Shown: one piece after another, positions 27,999-42,877 of the stretch
Position numbering within the stretch: the stretch's first letter is position 1
Layout: each line of letters opens with the position of its first letter
NCBI RefSeq assembly: GCF_000787395.1
Contig: NZ_JRAA01000002.1
Coordinates: 558,001-622,000 of the forward strand
Reading direction: 5' to 3'
DNA: 64,000 nt
From: Solemya velum gill symbiont
Lineage (GTDB): Bacteria; Pseudomonadota; Gammaproteobacteria; Chromatiales; Chromatiaceae
Translations under genes and position numbers: made by a program
The notes under the pieces: model-generated
Told to the model about the DNA's origin: nothing
The model's database searches: none
Seen by the model: only the letters and a program-made list of their open reading frames with translations

Positions 27999-28063
27999 TA
28001 TACGGATACATGACGGATACATGAATGATAGGCATAACCCTTTAGTTATGTATTGATTTAGAA

Positions 28064-29133
28064 CGTGAATTCAATTTCCAAGTGCAACTCAACAGAGTTG
28101 GTTAGAGGGCAAGCTGCGGTAGCATAGGTAGCTTCTCTCACCGACCAAAGTTAGAGGAGCACCATGTACACGCAGCTTACCCAGGAAGAACGATACCAGA
28201 TTCAGGCACTGATGAAAGCAGGTCACAATCAAACAGAGATAGCCAAGATACTTGGGCGCCACAAATCCACTGTCAGCCGCGAACTGAGGCGTAACCGTGG
28301 CTTGCGCGGCTATCGCCCCAAACAGGCCCATCGGCTGTCTGTAGAGCGCCGTCAGAGCAAGAGCCAGCCCCGTATTGCCACTACCCACTGGGAGCGAGTC
28401 GAGCATCTGTTGCGCGAGGACTGGAGTCCGGAACAAATCAGCCTGTGGCTGTGCAATGAGGCTGACATTCAAATCTCTCATGAGTGGATTTACCAGTACG
28501 TTCTCCAGAACAAATCCATGGGCGGTAACCTATACCGCCACCTGCGTTGCCAGAAGCAGCGTCGAAAGCGCTATGGCAGCTATAGCCGCCGAGGGCAACT
28601 GATTAACCGAGTCAGCATCGATGAACGTCCTGCCGTGGTTGATGAGCGTTCACGCTTCGGTGATTGGGAACTTGATACCATTATCGGAAAAGGCCACAAA
28701 CAGGCCATCGTTTCAATCACCGAGCGTAAATCCCGATTGACGCTCATCCATAAGGTGGAGAGAAAAACCGCCAGCAACGTCACCAGCGCTATCCTCAAAC
28801 TGCTCAAACCCATCGCCGGCCGCGTTCACACGCTGACCTCAGATAATGGTAAGGAATTCGCCGGTCACGAGACCATCGCTAAAGGCCTCAGTGCCAGGTT
28901 CTTCTTTGCCCATCCCTATGCCTCCTGGGAACGTGGCTTGAATGAGAACACCAATGGACTCATTCGCCAATACTTCCCAAAGCATCGGGACTTTACAACC
29001 ATCACTCAGGCGGAAATCAACCAGGTGATGAATAAACTGAACAATCGTCCCCGAAAATGTCTTGGCATTAAAACGCCCAATCAAGTATTTTTCGGGATTA
29101 ACCCATCCGTTGCACTAGTGAGTTGAATCCGCG
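28064..29133 (+). mobile_element. IS30-family insertion sequence, copy 1 (1070 bp)
   Basis: The ends are imperfect inverted repeats: left CGTGAATTCAATTTCC and, on the complement of the right end, CGCGGATTCAACTCAC, both leading into AGTGCAAC. A 3-bp target duplication GAA flanks it (28061-28063 and 29134-29136). A second copy at 41808-42877 has the same length, and I noted a single base difference (A28670 versus G42414, silent). It is inserted 84 bp upstream of a porin gene. Confidence 0.93.
28164..29126 (+). CDS. IS30-family transposase, copy 1
   Basis: A 320-residue DDE transposase. The N-terminal helix-turn-helix (YTQLTQEERYQIQALMKAGH, then TEIAKILGRHKSTVSRELRR) is typical of IS30. The catalytic core shows the three acidic positions in GDWELDTI, TSDNGKEFAGH and ERGLNENTNGLIRQYFPK, the last being the IS30 hallmark. 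A purine-rich AGAGGAG site precedes the ATG. The gene is intact and identical in protein sequence to the copy at 41.9 kb. Confidence 0.96.
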   Translation: MYTQLTQEERYQIQALMKAGHNQTEIAKILGRHKSTVSRELRRNRGLRGYRPKQAHRLSVERRQSKSQPRIATTHWERVEHLLREDWSPEQISLWLCNEADIQISHEWIYQYVLQNKSMGGNLYRHLRCQKQRRKRYGSYSRRGQLINRVSIDERPAVVDERSRFGDWELDTIIGKGHKQAIVSITERKSRLTLIHKVERKTASNVTSAILKLLKPIAGRVHTLTSDNGKEFAGHETIAKGLSARFFFAHPYASWERGLNENTNGLIRQYFPKHRDFTTITQAEINQVMNKLNNRPRKCLGIKTPNQVFFGINPSVALVS

Positions 29134-30460: not shown

Positions 30461-31771
30461 ATGTCATTTAAATCCCTCGGTCTCAGAACCGAACTCCTGC
30501 GTGCCGTGTCAGAACAAGGCTACAGCAAACCGACTCCTATCCAGTCGAAAGGCATTCCACCCGTTCTCGAAGGACGGGATATCATGGGTGGTGCACAGAC
30601 AGGCACCGGCAAAACAGCAGGCTTTACCCTGCCACTGCTGCAACGCCTGATGGAATCCGGCCAAGCAACAAAAGGCAAACGCCCGCTACGCGCCCTGGTA
30701 CTGACACCCACACGCGAACTGGCAGCCCAGGTTGAAGACAGCATCGATACCTACGGCAAATACCTGCCACTAAAATCGATGGTGATTTTCGGTGGTGTCA
30801 GCATTCGCCCGCAGATTGATAAACTGCGCAACGGTGTCGACATCCTTGTTGCTACACCGGGCAGACTGCTCGATCATGCCGGTCAGAAAACCATCGACCT
30901 TTCGAATATCGAAATCCTCGTGCTCGATGAAGCCGATCGTATGCTCGATATGGGCTTCATCCGTGATATCCGCAAGGTGCTCGCGCTACTGCCAAAACAG
31001 AAACAGACACTGCTCTTCTCTGCCACCTTCTCGAAAGAGATCAGGGTGCTCGCGCATGAGTTGCTTGAGAAACCAGCACTGGTTGAAGTCGCACGCCATA
31101 ACACGGCTGCTGAGCGTGTCACACAGGTCGTACATCCCGTCGACAAGGGACGCAAACGTGAACTCCTCTCCTGGCTGATCGGTTCCAACAACTGGAAGCA
31201 GGTATTGGTCTTCACACGTACCAAGCATGGTGCAAACCGCCTCGCCAAGCAGTTGGAGGGTGATGGCATCACCTCTGCCGCGATCCATGGCAACAAGAGC
31301 CAGGGCGCTCGTACAAAAGCACTGGCAGGTTTCAAGGCGGGAGATGTGCGCGTACTGGTGGCAACCGATATCGCCGCGCGCGGACTGGATATAGACCAGC
31401 TCCCCCACGTGGTCAATTTCGAACTGCCCAACGTACCTGAAGATTATGTCCACCGCATCGGCCGCACCGGCCGGGCCGGCAACGAGGGTGAGGCGATATC
31501 ACTCGTCTGTGTTGACGAGCTGAAGTTACTGAGAGATATCGAACGCCTGTTGAAACGTGAGATTCCGAAAGTGGTTATGGATGGCTATGAACCAGATCCT
31601 AGTATCAAACCCGAACCAATAAATAAGGGGCGAGGTGGTCAGCAGAGATCATCCCGTGGCAGGTCTGGCGACGGTAATCCGGCGGGCAAAAGAAACAGCG
31701 GTAACAGCAACAACAGAAACAGTGGCAACAGGCAGTCAAAAGGCCGCTCTGGCAACAGGAGAAATGCATAA
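30461..31771 (+). CDS. rhlE: DEAD-box ATP-dependent RNA helicase, RhlE type
   Basis: A 436-residue RNA helicase. The motifs appear in order: Q motif with [13 protein letters not shown] (I), PTRELAAQ (Ia), TPGRLLD (Ib), [13 protein letters not shown] (II, the RhlE-type extension), SATFS (III), VFTRTKHGA (IV), [10 protein letters not shown] (V) and [10 protein letters not shown] (VI). The C-terminal tail from about residue 385 is a low-complexity region rich in G, N, R and S, typical of RhlE RNA-binding tails. Preceded by an AGAGAA ribosome-binding site and followed by a clear terminator. It is not obviously linked in function to its accessory-region neighbours. Confidence 0.93.
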
Positions 31772-31835
31772 CACTTTCCTGCTCCATCACTTGCAAGAAG
31801 CAATCAAGCCATACGAGATATACATCTGGATAATG

Positions 31836-31869
31836 AAAAAGGGAGCATGACAACTTGCTCCCTTTTTTC
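31836..31869 (+). terminator. Terminator after the RhlE-type helicase
   Basis: AAAAAGGGAGCA, an 8-base loop and TGCTCCCTTTTTT. Confidence 0.92.
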
Positions 31870-31911
31870 TTGCAGCTTTTTCAGGTCATGCTCTTCCCGT
31901 ACAGCGCCCGC

Positions 31912-34533
31912 CTAACCTGTCTGGATAAATTTCTTTACATGTTGAAACGTCATTTCATAATTCCATGATGAGATAAACACCAGGTCATCTTCACCAGCTC
32001 TTCCCAGAACACTAGTCACGGCATCATCCTCAGATGCGTGTACAAATATCGCCTGCCGGGAAACTCCTTCATCCAGCAATCCCCGGGTAAGAAGATCCGT
32101 CAACTCACCTGCCGTACGGTTGCGCAGGTAATGATCAGTGGTGTACAGGTGGTATTCATCATAATCCCCGGCAACCACTTGCATCGCCTTGCTATAGTCT
32201 GCATCCCTTCTATTCCCGGTCATCGAGTAGACAAGAAAACGCCTATCTCCATCAATCTTTCTGACTGCAGGTTCTACAGCTGCAAGGGCGCTTGGGTTAA
32301 GGCAGTGATCAACGACAACGCGAAAAGGAAAACCATCGATAGTAGTCATGCGACCAGGATTATCTGAAGCATCACATTGAAAAGTACCTAATGACTCGAC
32401 TATAGATTCAAGCTCCTGATCCAATCCATAGGCAATGGCGGCCGCACACATTGCATTTTCGATATTATATAAAGCTGCTCCACCAAGGGACGCAGGAAGG
32501 TCTGTCACTGCCAACAGTGGATGGCGCATGCTGTTATCGTAGAGGACCATCCATAACTCACTATCGACCTGCTCAAGCCGCAGCGCAGGGTGACCAGACG
32601 CAATATGCTCCGCTACAAGTGGATTCTCCTCCATCATGCTGAAGTAACAGACACGATCAGCACGAGAGCGTTTGGAAAGAGCGGCAGTAAGAGGGTCATC
32701 CGCACCCAGAATGACCATCTTCCGAGCCAGCTCCACCAACAGGCCCTTGACCTTTGCCATCTCCTCCCTTGATTGCACACCAAGCTCACCAATATGTTCA
32801 TCGGCAACATTGGTTACAGCCATGACATCGCAAGAATCAATTCCTGTGCCCCACTTGAGAATTGCCCCACGTGCAATCTCAAGTACCGCAGCATCGATAC
32901 GGGGATCAATCAGAAGTTGCTGTGCGGCTGACCCACCTGACAAATCCCCTCTGTGAACCAGCTCATCATCTACATAAACACCACTTGTACTGGTCATACC
33001 AACACAACCCCCGGAATGGCGCAGGATATGTGTGCTCATACGGGTCGTGGTTGTCTTTCCGTTACTTCCGGTTACGACCGCAACGGGTATGCGTGATGGT
33101 TCACCTGCAGGGAAAAGCATCTCGAAAATGGGACCAGCCACATCATGTGGCTCTCCTTCGGTTGGAGAATGATGCATACGCAAACCGGGAGATGGATTAA
33201 TCTCGCAGATCTTGCCGCCTGTCTCCTTCCAGGACCGTGTGATATCGGTCGTAATATAGTCGATACCGGCAATATCCAAACCGATAACCTTGGCAGCCAG
33301 AAGTGCCATCTCCTGGTTGTCCGGATGCACGTCGGAGGTCACATCAACACAGGTCCCACCCCTGGAAAGATTACTTGTGCCGCGCAAAAAAACCTGTTTG
33401 CCGGCTGGAGGAATACCATCAATTGTGTAACCTGCCTTTGCCAGCACTGCCTCCGCTTCCTGGTCCAGTTCAATCCGACCGAGTACTGATTGCTTTCCTA
33501 CACCACGTCGTGGATCACGGTGAAGCATATTCACCAGTTCCCTGATGGTATGGCGACCATCACCAGTCACATGTGCCGATATGCGGTGTGCTGCAGCAAC
33601 AAACTTTCCATTGATGACAAGCAGACGGTACTCATCTCCGTCTATAAAGTTTTCCAGCAAAACCATTGGAGAATGCTGCTTTGCCGTGTCGAACGCAGTC
33701 AGTAGAGAGCGCTCATCCTGAATACCAATCGTAATTCCTATCCCCATATCTGTCGTGGAAGGTTTAGCAACAAGGGGGAACCCCAACTGCCTGGCGGCCC
33801 GGGGTACTGTTTCGCGATTATTTACAACTACCTGGTCAGCAACAGGTAAACCAACGCGACGTAGCTCAATATTAGCGTGTGGCTTGTACTGGGCCAGATG
33901 AAACGCGACCCAACTCGTGCCGGGTGTGGTTTTTTTCCACAAACGCTTTTGATATCGACCCTGCCCAAGAATCAATGAATCCGGGCTTAAGCCCATCGTG
34001 ATGGGAATATCCCTCTCTCTGGCCGATTGGTAAAGATATCGTGTATCAATATTCCTGCTTAGCGGTACTGCTTTTTGAAGAAATAGCTTGTGCTCACGAT
34101 TCATTATCGACGCAAGCGCTTCCCTATCTACCTCTTTTGCCTCTGTCAGGCGCTTCAGAACTTCTTGAGCGTAATTGACGGTCAGTGTTGTAACCTGGCG
34201 CTCCTCATATGAAAAGAGAAGATCCAAACCACCTCTATCCGGAAGTGAAACGACTTTTTTGTAAGTCAACATCCATCCGAGTTCGGCAGCCGCCATTTCA
34301 ATCAGGCTGAATAAAACGTGGCCAGCATGCGAGCTTTCAACGCCCACCGGGTTGATCGTCTCCAGCACCTCTTGCAACTGTGGAAAAACTTGCATCCAAC
34401 GACGTAACAGGATGGCAGGAACTGGCGTTACGACAGATTCACCGGGCTGGTCGGCTTCCAATCGGAGGCGGCACACCTGGTTATCCAAATAGAGATTAAC
34501 CCCGACAAAAAAGCGCAATTCAGAGACTTTCAT
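31912..34533 (-). CDS. cphA: Cyanophycin-synthetase-like enzyme (ATP-grasp plus Mur ligase)
   Basis: An 873-residue two-engine ligase. Residues about 1-160 form the N-terminal domain (start MKVSELRFFVGVNLYLDNQ). Residues about 215-475 are an ATP-grasp domain with VAKPSTTDMGIGI, the lid FIDGDEYRLLVINGK, HVTGDGRHTI and the metal ligands Glu and Asn in CEINPSPG. From about 483 a Mur-ligase domain begins with P-loop TGSNGKTTTTRM (489-500) and continues with TNVADEHIGE and the DNPGRM segment. CphA1 uses the first site to add Asp and the second to add Arg, building cyanophycin. Length and domain order are those of CphA. No cyanophycinase (cphB) is visible nearby, and the partner genes across the 94-bp divergent spacer are unusual, so the product may not be classic cyanophycin. 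Confidence 0.88.
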   Translation of the reverse strand: MKVSELRFFVGVNLYLDNQVCRLRLEADQPGESVVTPVPAILLRRWMQVFPQLQEVLETINPVGVESSHAGHVLFSLIEMAAAELGWMLTYKKVVSLPDRGGLDLLFSYEERQVTTLTVNYAQEVLKRLTEAKEVDREALASIMNREHKLFLQKAVPLSRNIDTRYLYQSARERDIPITMGLSPDSLILGQGRYQKRLWKKTTPGTSWVAFHLAQYKPHANIELRRVGLPVADQVVVNNRETVPRAARQLGFPLVAKPSTTDMGIGITIGIQDERSLLTAFDTAKQHSPMVLLENFIDGDEYRLLVINGKFVAAAHRISAHVTGDGRHTIRELVNMLHRDPRRGVGKQSVLGRIELDQEAEAVLAKAGYTIDGIPPAGKQVFLRGTSNLSRGGTCVDVTSDVHPDNQEMALLAAKVIGLDIAGIDYITTDITRSWKETGGKICEINPSPGLRMHHSPTEGEPHDVAGPIFEMLFPAGEPSRIPVAVVTGSNGKTTTTRMSTHILRHSGGCVGMTSTSGVYVDDELVHRGDLSGGSAAQQLLIDPRIDAAVLEIARGAILKWGTGIDSCDVMAVTNVADEHIGELGVQSREEMAKVKGLLVELARKMVILGADDPLTAALSKRSRADRVCYFSMMEENPLVAEHIASGHPALRLEQVDSELWMVLYDNSMRHPLLAVTDLPASLGGAALYNIENAMCAAAIAYGLDQELESIVESLGTFQCDASDNPGRMTTIDGFPFRVVVDHCLNPSALAAVEPAVRKIDGDRRFLVYSMTGNRRDADYSKAMQVVAGDYDEYHLYTTDHYLRNRTAGELTDLLTRGLLDEGVSRQAIFVHASEDDAVTSVLGRAGEDDLVFISSWNYEMTFQHVKKFIQTG

Positions 34534-34627
34534 TTAGGTTTTATTCATCATAAAGGTATAGTTACAGTATTGTGATAGTCTAAACCAGTTCTATTTTACT
34601 CACCTTTTAATTGCGGATTCACTGAGA
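34534..34627. promoter_or_regulatory. Divergent promoter region of the cphA-like locus
   Basis: A 94-bp AT-rich spacer. Rightwards, TTGTGA (34570-34575) and TATTTT (34592-34597) with a 16-bp spacer make a plausible sigma-70 promoter for the fusion gene. A leftward promoter must lie in the same stretch but is not clear. Confidence 0.5.
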
Positions 34628-35998
34628 ATGAAACTACCAGCAAACGGGGCGCTTTATGGTGGAAATCCACCCCAGGGCATTAGCCAGGAGCCCCTGATTA
34701 TCAACGCCTGCCTGTCGGGTAATATCACCAACAGGGCAAGCAACCCCAATGTTCCCTGTAGTGTTCAGGAAATCACTGATAATGCAGGAGCCGTCATCGA
34801 GGCAGGCGCAAGTATTCTCCATGTTCACGCCTATGAGAATGATGGCACCCCAAGCTGGCGCCCGGAAATTTTCGGTAACATTTTTGACTCCATCCGCAGT
34901 GATCATCCTGAGGTGGTGCTGGTTGCAACAACAAGCGGACGACTTTACCCCGAATTTGAAAAACGCTCGGCAGTCCTCGAACTGGACGGCAAGGCCAAAC
35001 CCGATATGGCCTCGTTGACCCTTGCATCACTCAACTTCCCCAGGCAGGCATCGATAAATGATCCTGAAACCGTTCAAGGACTGTGCCAGCGAATGCGTGA
35101 CAGGGGCATAACACCTGAACTGGAAGCTTTCGATCTCGGCATGCTGAACTACGCATTTTATCTGCAGCGCAAGGGAATGTTGCCATTGCACTGCTATGTC
35201 AATCTGCTACTTGGTTCACTCGGCACGGTGCCCGGGCGTACTCTTGATCTCGCCAACCTTGCGCGCGAGATTCCACAGGACTGGACATGGGCAGCAGCAG
35301 GGATCGGGCGTTATCAATTACCCATCAATGCCACGGCAATTACCATGGGCGGTAACGTACGGGTCGGACTGGAAGATAATCCGTTTTATGACTACGCTGA
35401 ACGGGAACCGGCCAGTAATGAAGAGTTGATTAAACGCCTCGTCCGCATTGCCGGTGAACTCGGGCGAACAATTGCATCACCCGGAGAAACACGTCAACGA
35501 CTGCATCTTGATAATCCTGACAACTGGAGTGCGACTCAAATTACGATCCGGAAAATGAAATCCGGTGACATGGATCGTGTGATGGGAATACTGGCAGAGT
35601 GGAATATGGCGCCAATCGAAGCAGATGCGAATACCCCTGCTCCGGAACGTGACCGAATAGAGATCGGCAATACATTTGTTGCCGAACTTCAGGGAAATAT
35701 AGTCGGTACCTGCGGTTACTATGTTCTCGATGAAACGCATGCTGAAACAGCAAGCCTTGCAGTCGACCCGGAATTTCTTGGTTGTGGAATCGGTTTTCAA
35801 CTGCAGGAGGCACGGCTGCAGGAGATACGTGAGCGAGGGATTCGTCATTTACGAACTGAATCGGATCGACCTGAAGTCATACATTGGTATATCAATAAAT
35901 TTGGTTACCGGAAGACAGGAATAAATCCCAAAAAGCATGCATTTGGTCACCCTGATAAGGACTCCTGGACAATCCTTGAGCTTGAACTGGAGCAGTGA
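34628..35998 (+). CDS. Fusion of a beta-keto acid cleavage enzyme (BKACE/DUF849) with a GNAT acetyltransferase
   Basis: A 456-residue protein with two parts. Residues about 20-300 match the BKACE family, zinc TIM-barrel enzymes that react a beta-keto acid with acetyl-CoA. They show LIINACLSGN, the zinc pair His65 and His67 in ILHVHAYENDGTPSWRPE, the strand PELEAFDLGML and a C-terminal ASPGETRQRL segment. Residues about 308-456 are a GNAT acyltransferase fold with AVDPEFLGCGIGFQLQEARL as the acetyl-CoA loop (the usual first R/Q of the loop is Leu) and HWYINKFGYRKTG. Both halves use acyl-CoA. I know of no described protein with this fusion. It is followed after two bases by an ATP-grasp gene and faces cphA. 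Substrates are unknown. Confidence 0.82.
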   Translation: MKLPANGALYGGNPPQGISQEPLIINACLSGNITNRASNPNVPCSVQEITDNAGAVIEAGASILHVHAYENDGTPSWRPEIFGNIFDSIRSDHPEVVLVATTSGRLYPEFEKRSAVLELDGKAKPDMASLTLASLNFPRQASINDPETVQGLCQRMRDRGITPELEAFDLGMLNYAFYLQRKGMLPLHCYVNLLLGSLGTVPGRTLDLANLAREIPQDWTWAAAGIGRYQLPINATAITMGGNVRVGLEDNPFYDYAEREPASNEELIKRLVRIAGELGRTIASPGETRQRLHLDNPDNWSATQITIRKMKSGDMDRVMGILAEWNMAPIEADANTPAPERDRIEIGNTFVAELQGNIVGTCGYYVLDETHAETASLAVDPEFLGCGIGFQLQEARLQEIRERGIRHLRTESDRPEVIHWYINKFGYRKTGINPKKHAFGHPDKDSWTILELELEQ

Positions 35999-36000
35999 CA

Positions 36001-37830
36001 ATGCAGGAAACGTTCGTGCAGAACCAGAATGGTTTCAGAGATGGACTGCAACAACCCGGGCAAGCCATAACAATCTCTTTTTCTGTTCCTGAAGGGAACA
36101 ATGACATCAAATCATTAGATGAATGGCTGATAAACAGACTTGAAGTTGAAATTGATCCGGAACCAGATCAAACAATCGGGCTGATCGAATCCAAATCAAA
36201 AGAAGTCTTCTCTCTTTTCTGGAGAGTTCTCCTCTTAGGGCGCTATTTCCAGCAAACAGCCCGCATCCCCGTTTTTGATCCGGGAATTATACTTTCGGTT
36301 TCACAAAGCCAAGACGATCAAACCAAATGGCAATCAAGGGTAGCTATACCCATGATTGATAACCTCTCCACTAACATTATTCACAAGGCCTATAGCTCTG
36401 CGACAGAGCTAATCCATCATGTATTGAATAATAGCCGTTCGTCCGATACCCCCGATGAGCCGTACAAAATCCTCCAGGAAAATACCCTGAAGCCTCTCCA
36501 GTCAATGATCAGGTCGGGCATTTCTACAATACCCATACTCAAAACCGCTCATCAGAACCATATACCCTTTCGCCACTTGAAGAGCGGGGTATACCAGCTG
36601 GGTTGGGGGTGTAATAAACGTTTGATCGACAGAAGTTCAGTGGATGCTGATTCCAGCATAGGCGTCACATTCACGCATAACAAATTTCAAACAGCAACCA
36701 TGATTCGAATGGCCGGACTTCCTGCTCCGGTTCATGTCATGGTGAAAAGCTATGAAGAAGCGAGGCAGGCTGCTGACAGGCTCGGCTGGCCTCTCGTTGT
36801 CAAACCGGCAAATCTGGACAGAGGAGAAGGTGTTACCGTTGCCATTGCAAACGATGAAAAACTCGAATTTGCATACAAGAGGGCATCAGCCCTCTCTAAA
36901 TCGATACTCGTGGAACGCGAAGTACCGGGTGTCTGTTATCGCGTACTGATTACCAATGGAAAAATGCTGTATGCAATAAAAAGGAGTCCCAGGTCAATTG
37001 AAGGCGATGGCAGGCACAAGGTGACCGAGCTTGTTCGTATGGCGACTGAGGCCAATGACAACAAACCTCCTTGGCTTCAGGAGAAACCCTACCCCCTGGA
37101 TGCCCTCGCGCTGGAATCCATGTCCCTTGCCGGATTCACTACTGATTCCATACCGGAAAAAGGCGAATGGGTACCACTGCGCAGAATTGAGTCAACAGCC
37201 TGGGGTGGACACATTGAAGAGGTGACAGAACTGGTGCATCCGGAAAACCTGCAGATCGCTGAACAGGCTGCATCCTTGTTTCGGCTGTCAAATGCAGGGA
37301 TAGATATCATTTCAAGTGATATCTCACGACCATGGTATGAGAACCAGGCGATCATCAATGAAGTCAATTATGCTCCCTACTTTGGTGGAAATGATATTGC
37401 CAGGTCGGCCATGCCGGCTTACCTGAAAACACTCATTCACGGTGACGGACGGATTCCCATCGAAATTGTTCTAGGCAAGGATTCAGAAATGTCCGAAGCC
37501 CGTTCACGACAACAAGCTCTTCTCAAGCAGGGAGTCGACTGCCACCTGACAAGCCATTCTGAAACATTGAAACCGGATGGGCAACCAATGCCCTTTCCCT
37601 TTCAAAGCCTTTTCAACAGGACCTCTGCCCTGTTGATGAACAGGCATGTTGAGGCACTCGTACTTAGCGTTCAGACGGATGAGTTGTTACACACCGGATT
37701 ACCTGTCAACCAGGTTGACCAGCTGATCCATTTAAATGATGAGATTAGTGATTGGAAGAATCCGGACGTCAGTTCTGAAGCAACCATACAGAAGCTGATA
37801 GAGCAGATTGAACACTATTTAGCTACATAG
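36001..37830 (+). CDS. ATP-grasp ligase related to cyanophycin synthetase, with degenerate Mur-ligase tail
   Basis: A 609-residue protein translationally coupled to the fusion gene; the ATG at 36001 has GGAG eight bases upstream, overriding a GTG at 35995. Residues about 1-190 are a divergent N-terminal domain. An ATP-grasp domain (about 220-480) follows with TFTHNKFQTATMIRMAGLPAP, VVKPANLDRGEGVTV, EREVPGVCYRVLITNGKM, IEGDGRHKVTELV and metal ligands in NEVNYAPYFGG. These track the CphA protein at 31.9 kb motif for motif. The last 120 residues align by eye with the start of the CphA Mur domain (RIPIEIVLGKDS for RIPVAVVTGSNGKTTT), but the P-loop is lost and the rest of the domain is missing. 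It is probably a single-engine amino acid ligase. Confidence 0.8.
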   Translation: MQETFVQNQNGFRDGLQQPGQAITISFSVPEGNNDIKSLDEWLINRLEVEIDPEPDQTIGLIESKSKEVFSLFWRVLLLGRYFQQTARIPVFDPGIILSVSQSQDDQTKWQSRVAIPMIDNLSTNIIHKAYSSATELIHHVLNNSRSSDTPDEPYKILQENTLKPLQSMIRSGISTIPILKTAHQNHIPFRHLKSGVYQLGWGCNKRLIDRSSVDADSSIGVTFTHNKFQTATMIRMAGLPAPVHVMVKSYEEARQAADRLGWPLVVKPANLDRGEGVTVAIANDEKLEFAYKRASALSKSILVEREVPGVCYRVLITNGKMLYAIKRSPRSIEGDGRHKVTELVRMATEANDNKPPWLQEKPYPLDALALESMSLAGFTTDSIPEKGEWVPLRRIESTAWGGHIEEVTELVHPENLQIAEQAASLFRLSNAGIDIISSDISRPWYENQAIINEVNYAPYFGGNDIARSAMPAYLKTLIHGDGRIPIEIVLGKDSEMSEARSRQQALLKQGVDCHLTSHSETLKPDGQPMPFPFQSLFNRTSALLMNRHVEALVLSVQTDELLHTGLPVNQVDQLIHLNDEISDWKNPDVSSEATIQKLIEQIEHYLAT

Positions 37831-38007
37831 CACTCCCACAATCTCTACCAGCGAGATTGTCAATCTGTACGTGTCCACCGGTGCTATTGCGCCGACAGGT
37901 AATCAGGGTCAGTGTAACCACATCCTGGTCACCCTTTGACTTTCGCAGGATGTAAGACAATCGTTTTAGTCACTGACTCTAAACACCTGACACAGCAAAA
38001 TCGAATG

Positions 38008-39315
38008 TTATTCAAACTCCATCATCTTATAAATTCTCGCTGCGTTCCTTAACGAAAGCTCTCTGAAGGTTTTCCACTGCATATAGGCAGACTGATCGAT
38101 TTGATAGGCATCAGTTAAATCGCCACCATCATCAAGAACCTGTTCAACTTTTCCTTGCATATAGACCAGGTAATCTTTTGTAAAAGATGTAACTGTCTGC
38201 ATGTCAGTAACATCACCATGCCCCGGAATAATAATCCCCGGGTTTAATGTCTCAAGCTTGTCCCAGTTTTCTATCCACTCCCCGACACTTGTATGCTCCA
38301 GGATTGGTAGCATGCGTTCGTTAAAAGCGAAATCACCGGAGATTAAGAGATTATTTTCAGGCAACCACAACTGGATATCATCCGGGCTATGGGCATTGCC
38401 AAAATGCTTCAGGATAATTTTTCTTCCTTTAACCGGAAGAGCATACTCGTCACTAAATGTATGGTCGGGCATCAACAGTCGAGACTTGAAATATTTATCC
38501 TTTAAACTGTTCCTGGCCTGCTCGATCACCTGTTCTGAAGTATGCTCCAGAATCTCCGGCGTGTTGTCGTGCGCGATAATTTCAACGCCCTGCTCCTTCC
38601 AGTAACTACCGCCAAATACAGCATGTCCCTGTGCGTTTTCATACACCAGGTACTTGACTGGCAGATCAGTAACCTTCTTGATCTCTTCGTGCATCGCTTG
38701 TGCGAGTAAGTAGCTACCGCCACCGTTAAAAACGACAACCGCATCATCAGCGACGATGAAGCTAAGGTTATTGTTGTGACCCGAATTTTCATAGGTCGAT
38801 GGTTGTGGTGCGCCAATCGCTGAGTAGACACCATCCACAACCTGCTTAGGTCGCTGGTACAGCAGTGTTGTACTATCCAGCGTGCCCATATTCAGATCCA
38901 GGCCTCTCTTTTTCCAATCAAAATAGCCTTCATCATAATTTTTCACATTGGTATAGCCCATCTCCATCAGCGTTTTAGCTGCCAGGGGACTGCGAACATT
39001 CGTACCGCAATAAACAACGATGGGTGTATCAAGTGAGGGAACTGTTTCTGCAATGCGAAACTCCAGCCAGCCCCTGGGAATATTGACATTTTGATATAAA
39101 CCGAGGGTTCCAAGCAGCTTGACTTCAAACTGTGTCCTCACGTCAATAATGACTGCATCTGGTTGCTTGTCGATTAGCTGCATTATCTCGTCAGATGAAA
39201 TACTGCTAATCGATTGATTAGCCGCATCGAGGATTTGTTGTCCGGTAACAGGGGCGTCCTGCGCAAAAATGGCGTTTGAGAACAACAGGCAAAGAATTAG
39301 TAGTCGAGTCTTCAA
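38008..39315 (-). CDS. Periplasmic rhodanese plus metallo-beta-lactamase-fold protein
   Basis: A 435-residue secreted protein with signal peptide MKTRLLILCLLFSNAIFA. Residues about 40-140 are a rhodanese domain with the active-site loop VYCGTNVRSP (Cys103), suited to handling sulfane sulfur. Residues about 155-400 are a metallo-beta-lactamase fold. The later metal-site elements are present (GNAHSPDD, LISGDFAF, IIPGHGD), but the usual HxHxDH ligand motif reads ENAQGH (226-231), so only its last histidine remains. The order resembles SoxH-type and rhodanese-MBL proteins of sulfur oxidisers. Either it binds metal differently or this domain is catalytically changed. Transcribed alone. Confidence 0.8.
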   Translation of the reverse strand: MKTRLLILCLLFSNAIFAQDAPVTGQQILDAANQSISSISSDEIMQLIDKQPDAVIIDVRTQFEVKLLGTLGLYQNVNIPRGWLEFRIAETVPSLDTPIVVYCGTNVRSPLAAKTLMEMGYTNVKNYDEGYFDWKKRGLDLNMGTLDSTTLLYQRPKQVVDGVYSAIGAPQPSTYENSGHNNNLSFIVADDAVVVFNGGGSYLLAQAMHEEIKKVTDLPVKYLVYENAQGHAVFGGSYWKEQGVEIIAHDNTPEILEHTSEQVIEQARNSLKDKYFKSRLLMPDHTFSDEYALPVKGRKIILKHFGNAHSPDDIQLWLPENNLLISGDFAFNERMLPILEHTSVGEWIENWDKLETLNPGIIIPGHGDVTDMQTVTSFTKDYLVYMQGKVEQVLDDGGDLTDAYQIDQSAYMQWKTFRELSLRNAARIYKMMEFE

Positions 39316-41626: not shown

Positions 41627-41807
41627 TCTATGAAGGATGGCAATGAGGGAAATTATGATATTCCTTTTTCCTGAAAAAAAGGTTTGAATTTCATATCTTC
41701 CTCAAGAATATGATTTGTCCACCAGTCAACGAGGAATTCCAATATGAGTGGAGAAAGTTTGTATTTATTGCCACTCACTACATCTTTGGAAAAATGTTCC
41801 AATGCAA

Positions 41808-42877
41808 CGTGAATTCAATTTCCAAGTGCAACTCAACAGAGTTGGTTAGAGGGCAAGCTGCGGTAGCATAGGTAGCTTCTCTCACCGACCAAAGTTAGAG
41901 GAGCACCATGTACACGCAGCTTACCCAGGAAGAACGATACCAGATTCAGGCACTGATGAAAGCAGGTCACAATCAAACAGAGATAGCCAAGATACTTGGG
42001 CGCCACAAATCCACTGTCAGCCGCGAACTGAGGCGTAACCGTGGCTTGCGCGGCTATCGCCCCAAACAGGCCCATCGGCTGTCTGTAGAGCGCCGTCAGA
42101 GCAAGAGCCAGCCCCGTATTGCCACTACCCACTGGGAGCGAGTCGAGCATCTGTTGCGCGAGGACTGGAGTCCGGAACAAATCAGCCTGTGGCTGTGCAA
42201 TGAGGCTGACATTCAAATCTCTCATGAGTGGATTTACCAGTACGTTCTCCAGAACAAATCCATGGGCGGTAACCTATACCGCCACCTGCGTTGCCAGAAG
42301 CAGCGTCGAAAGCGCTATGGCAGCTATAGCCGCCGAGGGCAACTGATTAACCGAGTCAGCATCGATGAACGTCCTGCCGTGGTTGATGAGCGTTCACGCT
42401 TCGGTGATTGGGAGCTTGATACCATTATCGGAAAAGGCCACAAACAGGCCATCGTTTCAATCACCGAGCGTAAATCCCGATTGACGCTCATCCATAAGGT
42501 GGAGAGAAAAACCGCCAGCAACGTCACCAGCGCTATCCTCAAACTGCTCAAACCCATCGCCGGCCGCGTTCACACGCTGACCTCAGATAATGGTAAGGAA
42601 TTCGCCGGTCACGAGACCATCGCTAAAGGCCTCAGTGCCAGGTTCTTCTTTGCCCATCCCTATGCCTCCTGGGAACGTGGCTTGAATGAGAACACCAATG
42701 GACTCATTCGCCAATACTTCCCAAAGCATCGGGACTTTACAACCATCACTCAGGCGGAAATCAACCAGGTGATGAATAAACTGAACAATCGTCCCCGAAA
42801 ATGTCTTGGCATTAAAACGCCCAATCAAGTATTTTTCGGGATTAACCCATCCGTTGCACTAGTGAGTTGAATCCGCG
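41808..42877 (+). mobile_element. IS30-family insertion sequence, copy 2 (1070 bp)
   Basis: Same element as at 28064-29133, with a CAA target duplication at 41805-41807 and 42878-42880. Inserted into the hemerythrin gene, antisense to it. Confidence 0.95.
41908..42870 (+). CDS. IS30-family transposase, copy 2
   Basis: The protein is identical to the one at 28164 (320 residues, helix-turn-helix plus DDE core with NENTNGLIRQYFPK). The only base change I noticed is a silent GAA to GAG at 42412-42414. The near-identity implies very recent transposition. Confidence 0.96.
   Translation: MYTQLTQEERYQIQALMKAGHNQTEIAKILGRHKSTVSRELRRNRGLRGYRPKQAHRLSVERRQSKSQPRIATTHWERVEHLLREDWSPEQISLWLCNEADIQISHEWIYQYVLQNKSMGGNLYRHLRCQKQRRKRYGSYSRRGQLINRVSIDERPAVVDERSRFGDWELDTIIGKGHKQAIVSITERKSRLTLIHKVERKTASNVTSAILKLLKPIAGRVHTLTSDNGKEFAGHETIAKGLSARFFFAHPYASWERGLNENTNGLIRQYFPKHRDFTTITQAEINQVMNKLNNRPRKCLGIKTPNQVFFGINPSVALVS

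Follow-up and report, generated by a model that had tools for sequence, protein, structure and literature searches.

What could be made by a locus in which a gene resembling cyanophycin synthetase (CphA-like) stands back to back with a gene that fuses a beta-keto-acid cleavage enzyme (BKACE) to a GNAT acyltransferase, the fusion being followed by a second ligase, here called P3? We examined this locus in a 64,000-nt stretch of the Solemya velum gill symbiont genome, referred to below as the window (the genome, coded G000, holds 2,702,377 bases over 10 contigs, with C1, C3 and C4 at 1,213,831, 892,555 and 537,613 bases). The reading that we favor, at a little short of an even chance, is that the cassette serves the biosynthesis of an N-acyl-capped amino acid or short peptide and not of a storage polymer. 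The features in the window are:

31912..34533, minus strand: CphA-like protein, 873 aa, with N, ATP-grasp (G) and Mur-ligase (M) domains (Pfam)
34534..34627: divergent intergenic region, 94 bp
34628..35998, plus strand: BKACE-GNAT fusion, 456 aa (Pfam; conservation)
34691..35509, plus strand: BKACE domain of the fusion, residues 22-294, a member of the SGR clade
35648..35908, plus strand: GNAT domain core of the fusion, residues 341-427 (Pfam)
35995..37830, plus strand: P3, a CphA-family single-site ATP-grasp ligase with a degenerate Mur remnant, 611 aa, GTG start

An earlier note, made from the sequence alone, had placed the three open reading frames (ORFs), their strands, the divergent gap and the coupled ligase as we find them. 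Its naming of the second gene was borne out by Pfam: BKACE (PF05853) matched at E=3.8e-80 (269.6 bits against a gathering score of 24.8) and Acetyltransf_1 (the GNAT family, PF00583) at E=1.4e-12 (48.4 against 20.7). The predicted model of the fusion had a mean pLDDT of 81.0. ATP-grasp-type domains were matched together with Mur_ligase_M and Mur_ligase_C in the CphA-like protein, and alone in P3. The best solved relatives of both ligases by sequence are cyanophycin synthetases. Its shared promoter region is suggested by the divergent geometry, but a scan of 31700-38100 gave 5 promoter-like sites where shuffled sequence would yield 7.8; a single one of the 5, on the minus strand, falls within the gap.

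Which of the three genes belong together? The same-order fusion was found in two of 55 genomes (G000 and G001), in one of 369 Gammaproteobacteria (G000 alone) and in two of 395 genomes of the phylum of a Desulfobacterales metagenome-assembled genome (MAG), namely that MAG (G055) and G616, which was found in this search. It was absent from all 337 genomes of the phylum of G056, a genome with GNAT and BKACE as neighboring separate genes beside a Mur-ligase-type gene. A scan of genome contigs for the fusion gave 3 loci. Relative to the window, the fusion is 93% identical in the gill symbiont of S. elarraichensis (L020, the nearest named locus), 75% in G616 and 64% in the Desulfobacterales MAG; since it is intact in each, it is not an assembly accident. 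P3 adjoins it in three of the four genomes with the same-order fusion (G000, the S. elarraichensis symbiont and G616), and the P3 start overlaps the fusion end by 4 bp both in the window and in L020. In G616 a P3 ortholog (59% identical) directly follows the fusion and no CphA lies next to the two genes, a different CphA-like pair being on another contig; the neighbors, named by eye, are glucan-phosphorylase-like and pyruvate-kinase-like. In G055 the genome search found the fusion but nothing matching CphA or P3. The earlier note had read the three genes as a single pathway whose members should not occur without each other or without CphA. The pair without adjacent CphA in G616 and the lone fusion in G055 rule out an obligate three-gene unit; what stands is the association of fusion and ligase. 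The conserved unit is therefore the fusion plus P3 and CphA is a local addition, found beside the cassette in the two Solemya symbionts only. In 5 of the 621 plasmid records with a match, 80% or more of the fusion was covered (the three of these that were listed are 24–26% identical, with BKACE and GNAT as separate genes); for P3, none of 128 reached a coverage of 80%.

We compared the cassette between the two symbionts. The three genes have the same order in the S. elarraichensis symbiont, with identities of 68% (CphA), 93% (fusion) and 78–80% (P3). All three are under purifying selection, with omega at 0.17, 0.06 and 0.19–0.21, respectively. The dS values were 1.2 for CphA, 0.53 for the fusion and 0.58–0.60 for P3; the comparison genes gave 0.34 (EF-G-like), 0.37 (a 544-aa gene) and 0.77 (another CphA-family ligase). 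The S. elarraichensis P3 is cut between two contigs, C21 ending and C65 starting in it (L020 5672-5772 and L061 1-441), with unrelated bases closing the first piece; this may reflect either an insertion or an assembly break. The genes after P3 on C65 are unlike those in the window.

These data bear on the alternative that the fusion and P3 make up one pathway and the CphA-like gene across the divergent gap encodes an unrelated ligase, a neighbor and no more. The greater divergence of CphA (in amino acid identity and in dS) than of the fusion or P3 would fit this, as does G616 with its pair lacking CphA alongside. At least six CphA-family ligases are encoded in the symbiont genome, among them the window CphA, P3 and a paralog on C4, and a chance neighbor is not absurd. 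Against it stand the divergent 94-bp arrangement and, if C65 is the continuation of the locus, a trio intact in both symbionts while the genes after P3 differ. We consider an unrelated CphA unlikely.

What kind of ligase is P3? Residues were compared with those of the CphA1 of reference, TeCphA1, with roles as given in PMC9427784. P3 keeps Lys230, Lys270, Arg316, Arg330, Asp437 and Glu456, i.e., the ATP/Mg residues and the CphA1 Arg323 (as Arg330), and it carries the motifs RGEG and ESTAWGGH. It has Arg276 at the CphA1 His267 position and Ser400, Ala402 and Gly464 at those of Asn394, Ser396 and Arg458, so that three of the four Asp-contacting residues are missing; the Mur P-loop is missing as well. 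The predicted model (mean pLDDT 85.7) superposed on TeCphA1 (7wae) with Z 26.6 over 572 residues at 6.0 Å and on CphA2 (7ta5) with Z 22.8 over 543 residues at 5.5 Å. P3 is like CphA2 (7ta5, 8fxh) in size (about 600–640 aa for CphA2) and in its ATP-grasp domain with an inactive degenerate Mur remnant. It differs in Arg276 for the P-loop His, in Ser400/Ala402 for the large-loop Asn/Ser as in 7ta5, and in its place in the tree: among 28 rows, P3 and six others form a clade at 100/100 that excludes CphA1 and CphA2, whose PDB rows are G-domain fragments, the single CphA2 row included. These residues and the separate clade rule out a plain CphA2, and the clade's partner genes are tailoring enzymes. 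The three members coupled to a BKACE-GNAT gene group at 100/99. Four rows were omitted from the tree (two mostly dead-G-domain proteins, one truncated protein and half of a split gene from G092). RGEG is found in five members of the clade and RGEA in G304, with neither in the split G092 ligase; the NxSxGG loop of CphA1 is represented by WGG in five, DGG in G304 and WSG in G092. Ligases of this clade were detected in 4 of 331 Gammaproteobacteria (E below 1e-140; the symbiont's own twice, G092, G219 and G304); the phylum of G055 had one such genome among 375.

N-acetylglutaminylglutamine synthetase combines a GNAT with an ATP-grasp enzyme, a logic to which the earlier note had likened the locus. 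The likeness is partial. P3 scored 118 bits vs. a cut-off of 569 on the model of that synthetase (TIGR03103), matching positions 265-513 of 547, which rules out P3 being this enzyme, and by eye no asparagine-synthetase-type or peptidase gene adjoins the window locus.

A biosynthetic enzyme gene adjoins the P3-clade ligase in all seven members. The partner is a BKACE-GNAT fusion in three (window, L020 and G616), an alpha-ketoglutarate-dependent (aKG) HExxH-type peptide beta-hydroxylase in two (the paralog at 329 kb of C4 in the same genome, and G092; TIGR04267, E=1.3e-28 and 5.4e-27), an Fe/2-oxoglutarate (2OG) dioxygenase in one (G219) and an OCD/mu-crystallin enzyme in one (G304). In G092 the hydroxylase gene is divergent and the ligase is split into two ORFs. 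The two loci with the hydroxylase are:

L055 6934-10140 (own genome): P3-clade ligase and aKG-HExxH-type gene
L062 8592-11926 (G092): P3-clade ligase and aKG-HExxH-type gene

What would the fusion contribute? Its BKACE half matches 3-keto-5-aminohexanoate cleavage enzyme (Kce; 2y7d) over the whole domain and the catalytic frame, and keeps HxH 65/67, Glu166, Arg245, Glu249 and Asp250. Three features set it apart from Kce: Ile33 at what we take to be the position of Kce Glu14, presumably the amine-binding residue (the Kce labels are assumed for all these positions); the motif SGR vs. STGGR of five control loci; and the attached GNAT. The Kce equivalog was missed (244 vs. a cut-off of 382). We read 33 BKACE loci, 28 with SGR and 5 with STGGR, and the two sets split at a 100/100 branch. 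An acyltransferase is fused to the BKACE or lies within about 1 kb of it in 27 of the 28 SGR loci vs. none of the five STGGR loci (Fisher p=2.5e-5, or 5.1e-5 without the four same-order fusions, a test that counts each locus although the loci are not independent). The sole SGR locus without one, L101, lies at a contig edge. Thirteen of the 27 acyltransferases are GNATs, fusions included, and 14 are hexapeptide enzymes of the NeuD/PglD sort. Partner type changed at least four (hexapeptide) or five (GNAT) times on well-supported branches; thus, two unrelated acyltransferase folds replace each other. The idea in the earlier note of an acyl group taken from a beta-keto acid and passed to an acyltransferase fits this clade-wide pairing.

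The loci comprise the best 20 of 30 from the phylum of G055, 7 of 7 from that of G056 and 3 of 3 from Gammaproteobacteria, together with those of the 55-genome search (minus two G050 BKACE genes) and L020, L108 and L148; L103 and L149 denote a single locus and enter the count once, and L099 and L100 come from one genus. The GNAT tally was filled up in three rounds, after the data had been seen (22, 24 and 27 of 28): L131 and L134 were spotted by eye in the second, and a hidden Markov model (HMM) built partly from them added L106, L133 and L136 in the third, being applied equally to the controls. No GNAT was found in the five STGGR controls (L139–L143) at E<=0.05 and no hexapeptide match at E<=1e-5, the ORFs of the G+C-rich L140 being poorly called. 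Each of the 14 hexapeptide genes has a confirming Pfam or NCBIfam match; for the GNATs of L100, L106, L133 and L136 the identification is by our own phmmer/HMM matches. The acyltransferase is about 1 kb off in L132 and L138 and on the other strand in L103 and L144. A reverse-order GNAT-BKACE fusion is present in G454 (L102 3960-8051), where genes for a lysA-like decarboxylase and for a CapK-like AMP ligase precede it.

Several observations weigh against a capped amino acid or peptide as the product. The STGGR controls are few (five), and at least one MAG, G055 (possibly incomplete), has the fusion without P3. SGR BKACEs occur on the plasmids L150 (Streptomyces) and L152 (Salmonella) with no GNAT or hexapeptide gene in a gene table known to be incomplete. 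A non-SGR BKACE on a Roseateles plasmid adjoins a GNAT in a transporter operon, and two Shinella plasmid matches also list a GNAT; the pairing thus reaches outside the SGR clade, where it may mean plain N-acetylation. The surroundings of L102, L103, L105, L107, L108, L131 and L132 are made up of glycosyltransferase, WbqC-like or CapK-like genes, and the acceptor could therefore be an amino sugar. The plasmid clusters (L150 6287-10685 and L152 2477-8844) hold the SGR BKACE together with GTP cyclohydrolase II, a methyltransferase, riboflavin synthase and gamma-glutamyltransferase, and by their gene content look like a flavin- or pteridine-like pathway with a BKACE.

The Roseateles operon also enters into a different order of events, in which the GNAT acts first with acetyl-CoA, acetylating an amine to let BKACE cleave or build a protected keto acid; the cassette would then be a catabolic or salvage module and P3 an amide ligase of another step. 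The Roseateles operon, with its amino-acid transporter, BKACE, GNAT, histone-deacetylase-family gene and aminotransferase, would suit such a module, and by eye the G055 fusion adjoins a liv-type ABC transporter operon. The STGGR loci tell against it: they have a regulator or transporter gene in four of five (by eye) and neither GNAT nor hexapeptide gene. Hexapeptide acyltransferases, too, serve as partners in the SGR clade, in some cases beside glycan genes. We regard this order as improbable.

Could the CphA-like protein make a cyanophycin-type store? It aligns with CphA1 (TeCphA1 7wac, 7lgn and 7lgm) over residues 73-867 (per hit), i.e., all three domains, and shares the ATP/Mg and Asp-binding residues. 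It keeps Lys217, Lys257, Arg303, Arg317, Asn388, Ser390, Asp425, Glu444 and Arg452, among them all four Asp-recognition residues of CphA1 (Arg323, Asn394, Ser396 and Arg458, as Arg317, Asn388, Ser390 and Arg452), and also the M-domain P-loop Lys499/Thr500. It differs at His267 (Met263), Glu215 (His212), Asp585 (Glu579) and His748 (Leu745). His267, on the G-domain P-loop of CphA1, was reported as essential in PMC9427784; the S. elarraichensis ortholog also has Met there. The N-domain Cx19HxxEH occurs in 83% of CphA1, and HxxEH is the primer-making site, according to PMC9262961. Read by eye, residues 41-100 of the window and S. elarraichensis proteins lack HxxEH. The NCBIfam cyanophycin synthetase equivalog was missed (742.8 bits vs. 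850). Cyanophycinase (TIGR02069, E<=0.001), which the earlier note had not seen in the window, had no match anywhere in the G000 genome, nor in G001 or G616 (0 of 3 genomes); the model matched in 5 of 14 control genomes. This absence alone is weak evidence against storage, because a recognized cyanophycinase was counted in only 658 of 1614 CphA1 genomes in PMC10206079.

In the scheme for a cyanophycin or cyanophycin-like storage polymer, CphA would polymerize, P3 would re-polymerize in the manner of CphA2, and the fusion would supply a cap. The retained Asp-binding residues and Mur P-loop speak for it, and the changes at His267 and Glu215, the lacking HxxEH, the equivalog score and, weakly, the missing cyanophycinase speak against it. 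Canonical cyanophycin storage is rejected on the changed residues, a storage polymer made by the window CphA is unlikely from its sequence, and the full scheme with P3 and the fusion in these roles seems very improbable. The storage product that the earlier note had entertained is thus disfavored.

We return to capping of an amino acid or short peptide. In a first step, as judged from the BKACE family, the BKACE domain would exchange acetyl-CoA with a beta-keto acid whose usual amine site bears no free amine, and so produce acetoacetate and a non-acetyl acyl-CoA. The fused GNAT would then use this acyl group to cap an amine, in the simplest case an amino acid's alpha-amine, as the fusion and the clade-wide pairing suggest. 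P3, judged from its retained ATP/Mg residues and fold, would activate a carboxylate as acylphosphate and join a second amine, acting once and not as a polymerase. CphA would be an optional accessory in the Solemya symbionts, where it may extend the product, possibly by adding Asp-type units, or may be independent.

Other CphA-family ligases of the symbiont also lie in biosynthetic surroundings. The one at 721 kb of C3 is beside methyltransferases and a KS-AT-KR-type polyketide synthase (PKS); this locus (L056 4016-18001) holds the PKS with a condensation domain, three methyltransferase-like genes, a zinc dehydrogenase and the ligase. The one at 267 kb of C1 (L057 8250-14427) is with a P450, a UbiA prenyltransferase, a weakly squalene-cyclase-like protein and a glycosyltransferase. 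At 214 kb of C3 an ATP-grasp and Mur protein stands beside a weakly formyltransferase-like gene. Adjacent CphA-like gene pairs were seen in L065 (9254-11404 and 11613-13901), L066 (1871-3961 and 4142-6481) and L128 (2701-4635 and 4678-6861). In L065 and L066 one gene of the pair retains its ATP-grasp site and has a degraded Mur P-loop; the other has a Mur P-loop (GTNGKTT), and its ATP-grasp loop is missing from the alignment. These are possibly split two-subunit cyanophycin-type enzymes. Two IS30-type copies (named by eye; window 28062-29126 and 41806-42870) bracket the three-gene block in the same orientation, with identical first 608 bases and identical proteins. We set aside a composite-transposon cargo between them (28.1-42.9 kb); no evidence was sought for their moving the block.

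The words cyanophycin, polyketide and ligase have no occurrence in the main text of the S. velum genome paper (PMC4287430). In the open-access papers searched we found nothing joining cyanophycin with BKACE or with Solemya (BKACE by itself was not searched), and nothing on an HExxH beta-hydroxylase with ATP-grasp or on a cyanophycin synthetase-like biosynthetic ligase; a single paper came up on beta-keto acid cleavage together with an acetyltransferase and a fusion.

What would such a cassette mean for these families and for the symbiont? BKACE is familiar mainly from catabolism. We tentatively suggest, at somewhat less than even odds, that the SGR BKACEs are a previously unrecognized biosynthetic branch feeding a non-acetyl acyl-CoA to a dedicated acyltransferase. 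In one lineage the BKACE would be GNAT-fused and coupled to a new single-site ligase clade, derived from cyanophycin synthetase, with interchangeable partners (BKACE-GNAT, aKG-HExxH hydroxylase, 2OG dioxygenase and OCD-family enzyme). Together they would provide a route to capped or tailored short peptides free of ribosome and non-ribosomal peptide synthetase, expanded in a chemosynthetic animal symbiont with at least six such ligases. If this is true, the acyltransferase-welded BKACE clade would offer a way of making unusual acyl-CoAs with which to cap amines, and the ligase clade with its tailoring partners would extend the cyanophycin synthetase family from storage polymers to small molecules. 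We speculate that the symbiont might pass the product to its clam host, or that the product might act on the host.

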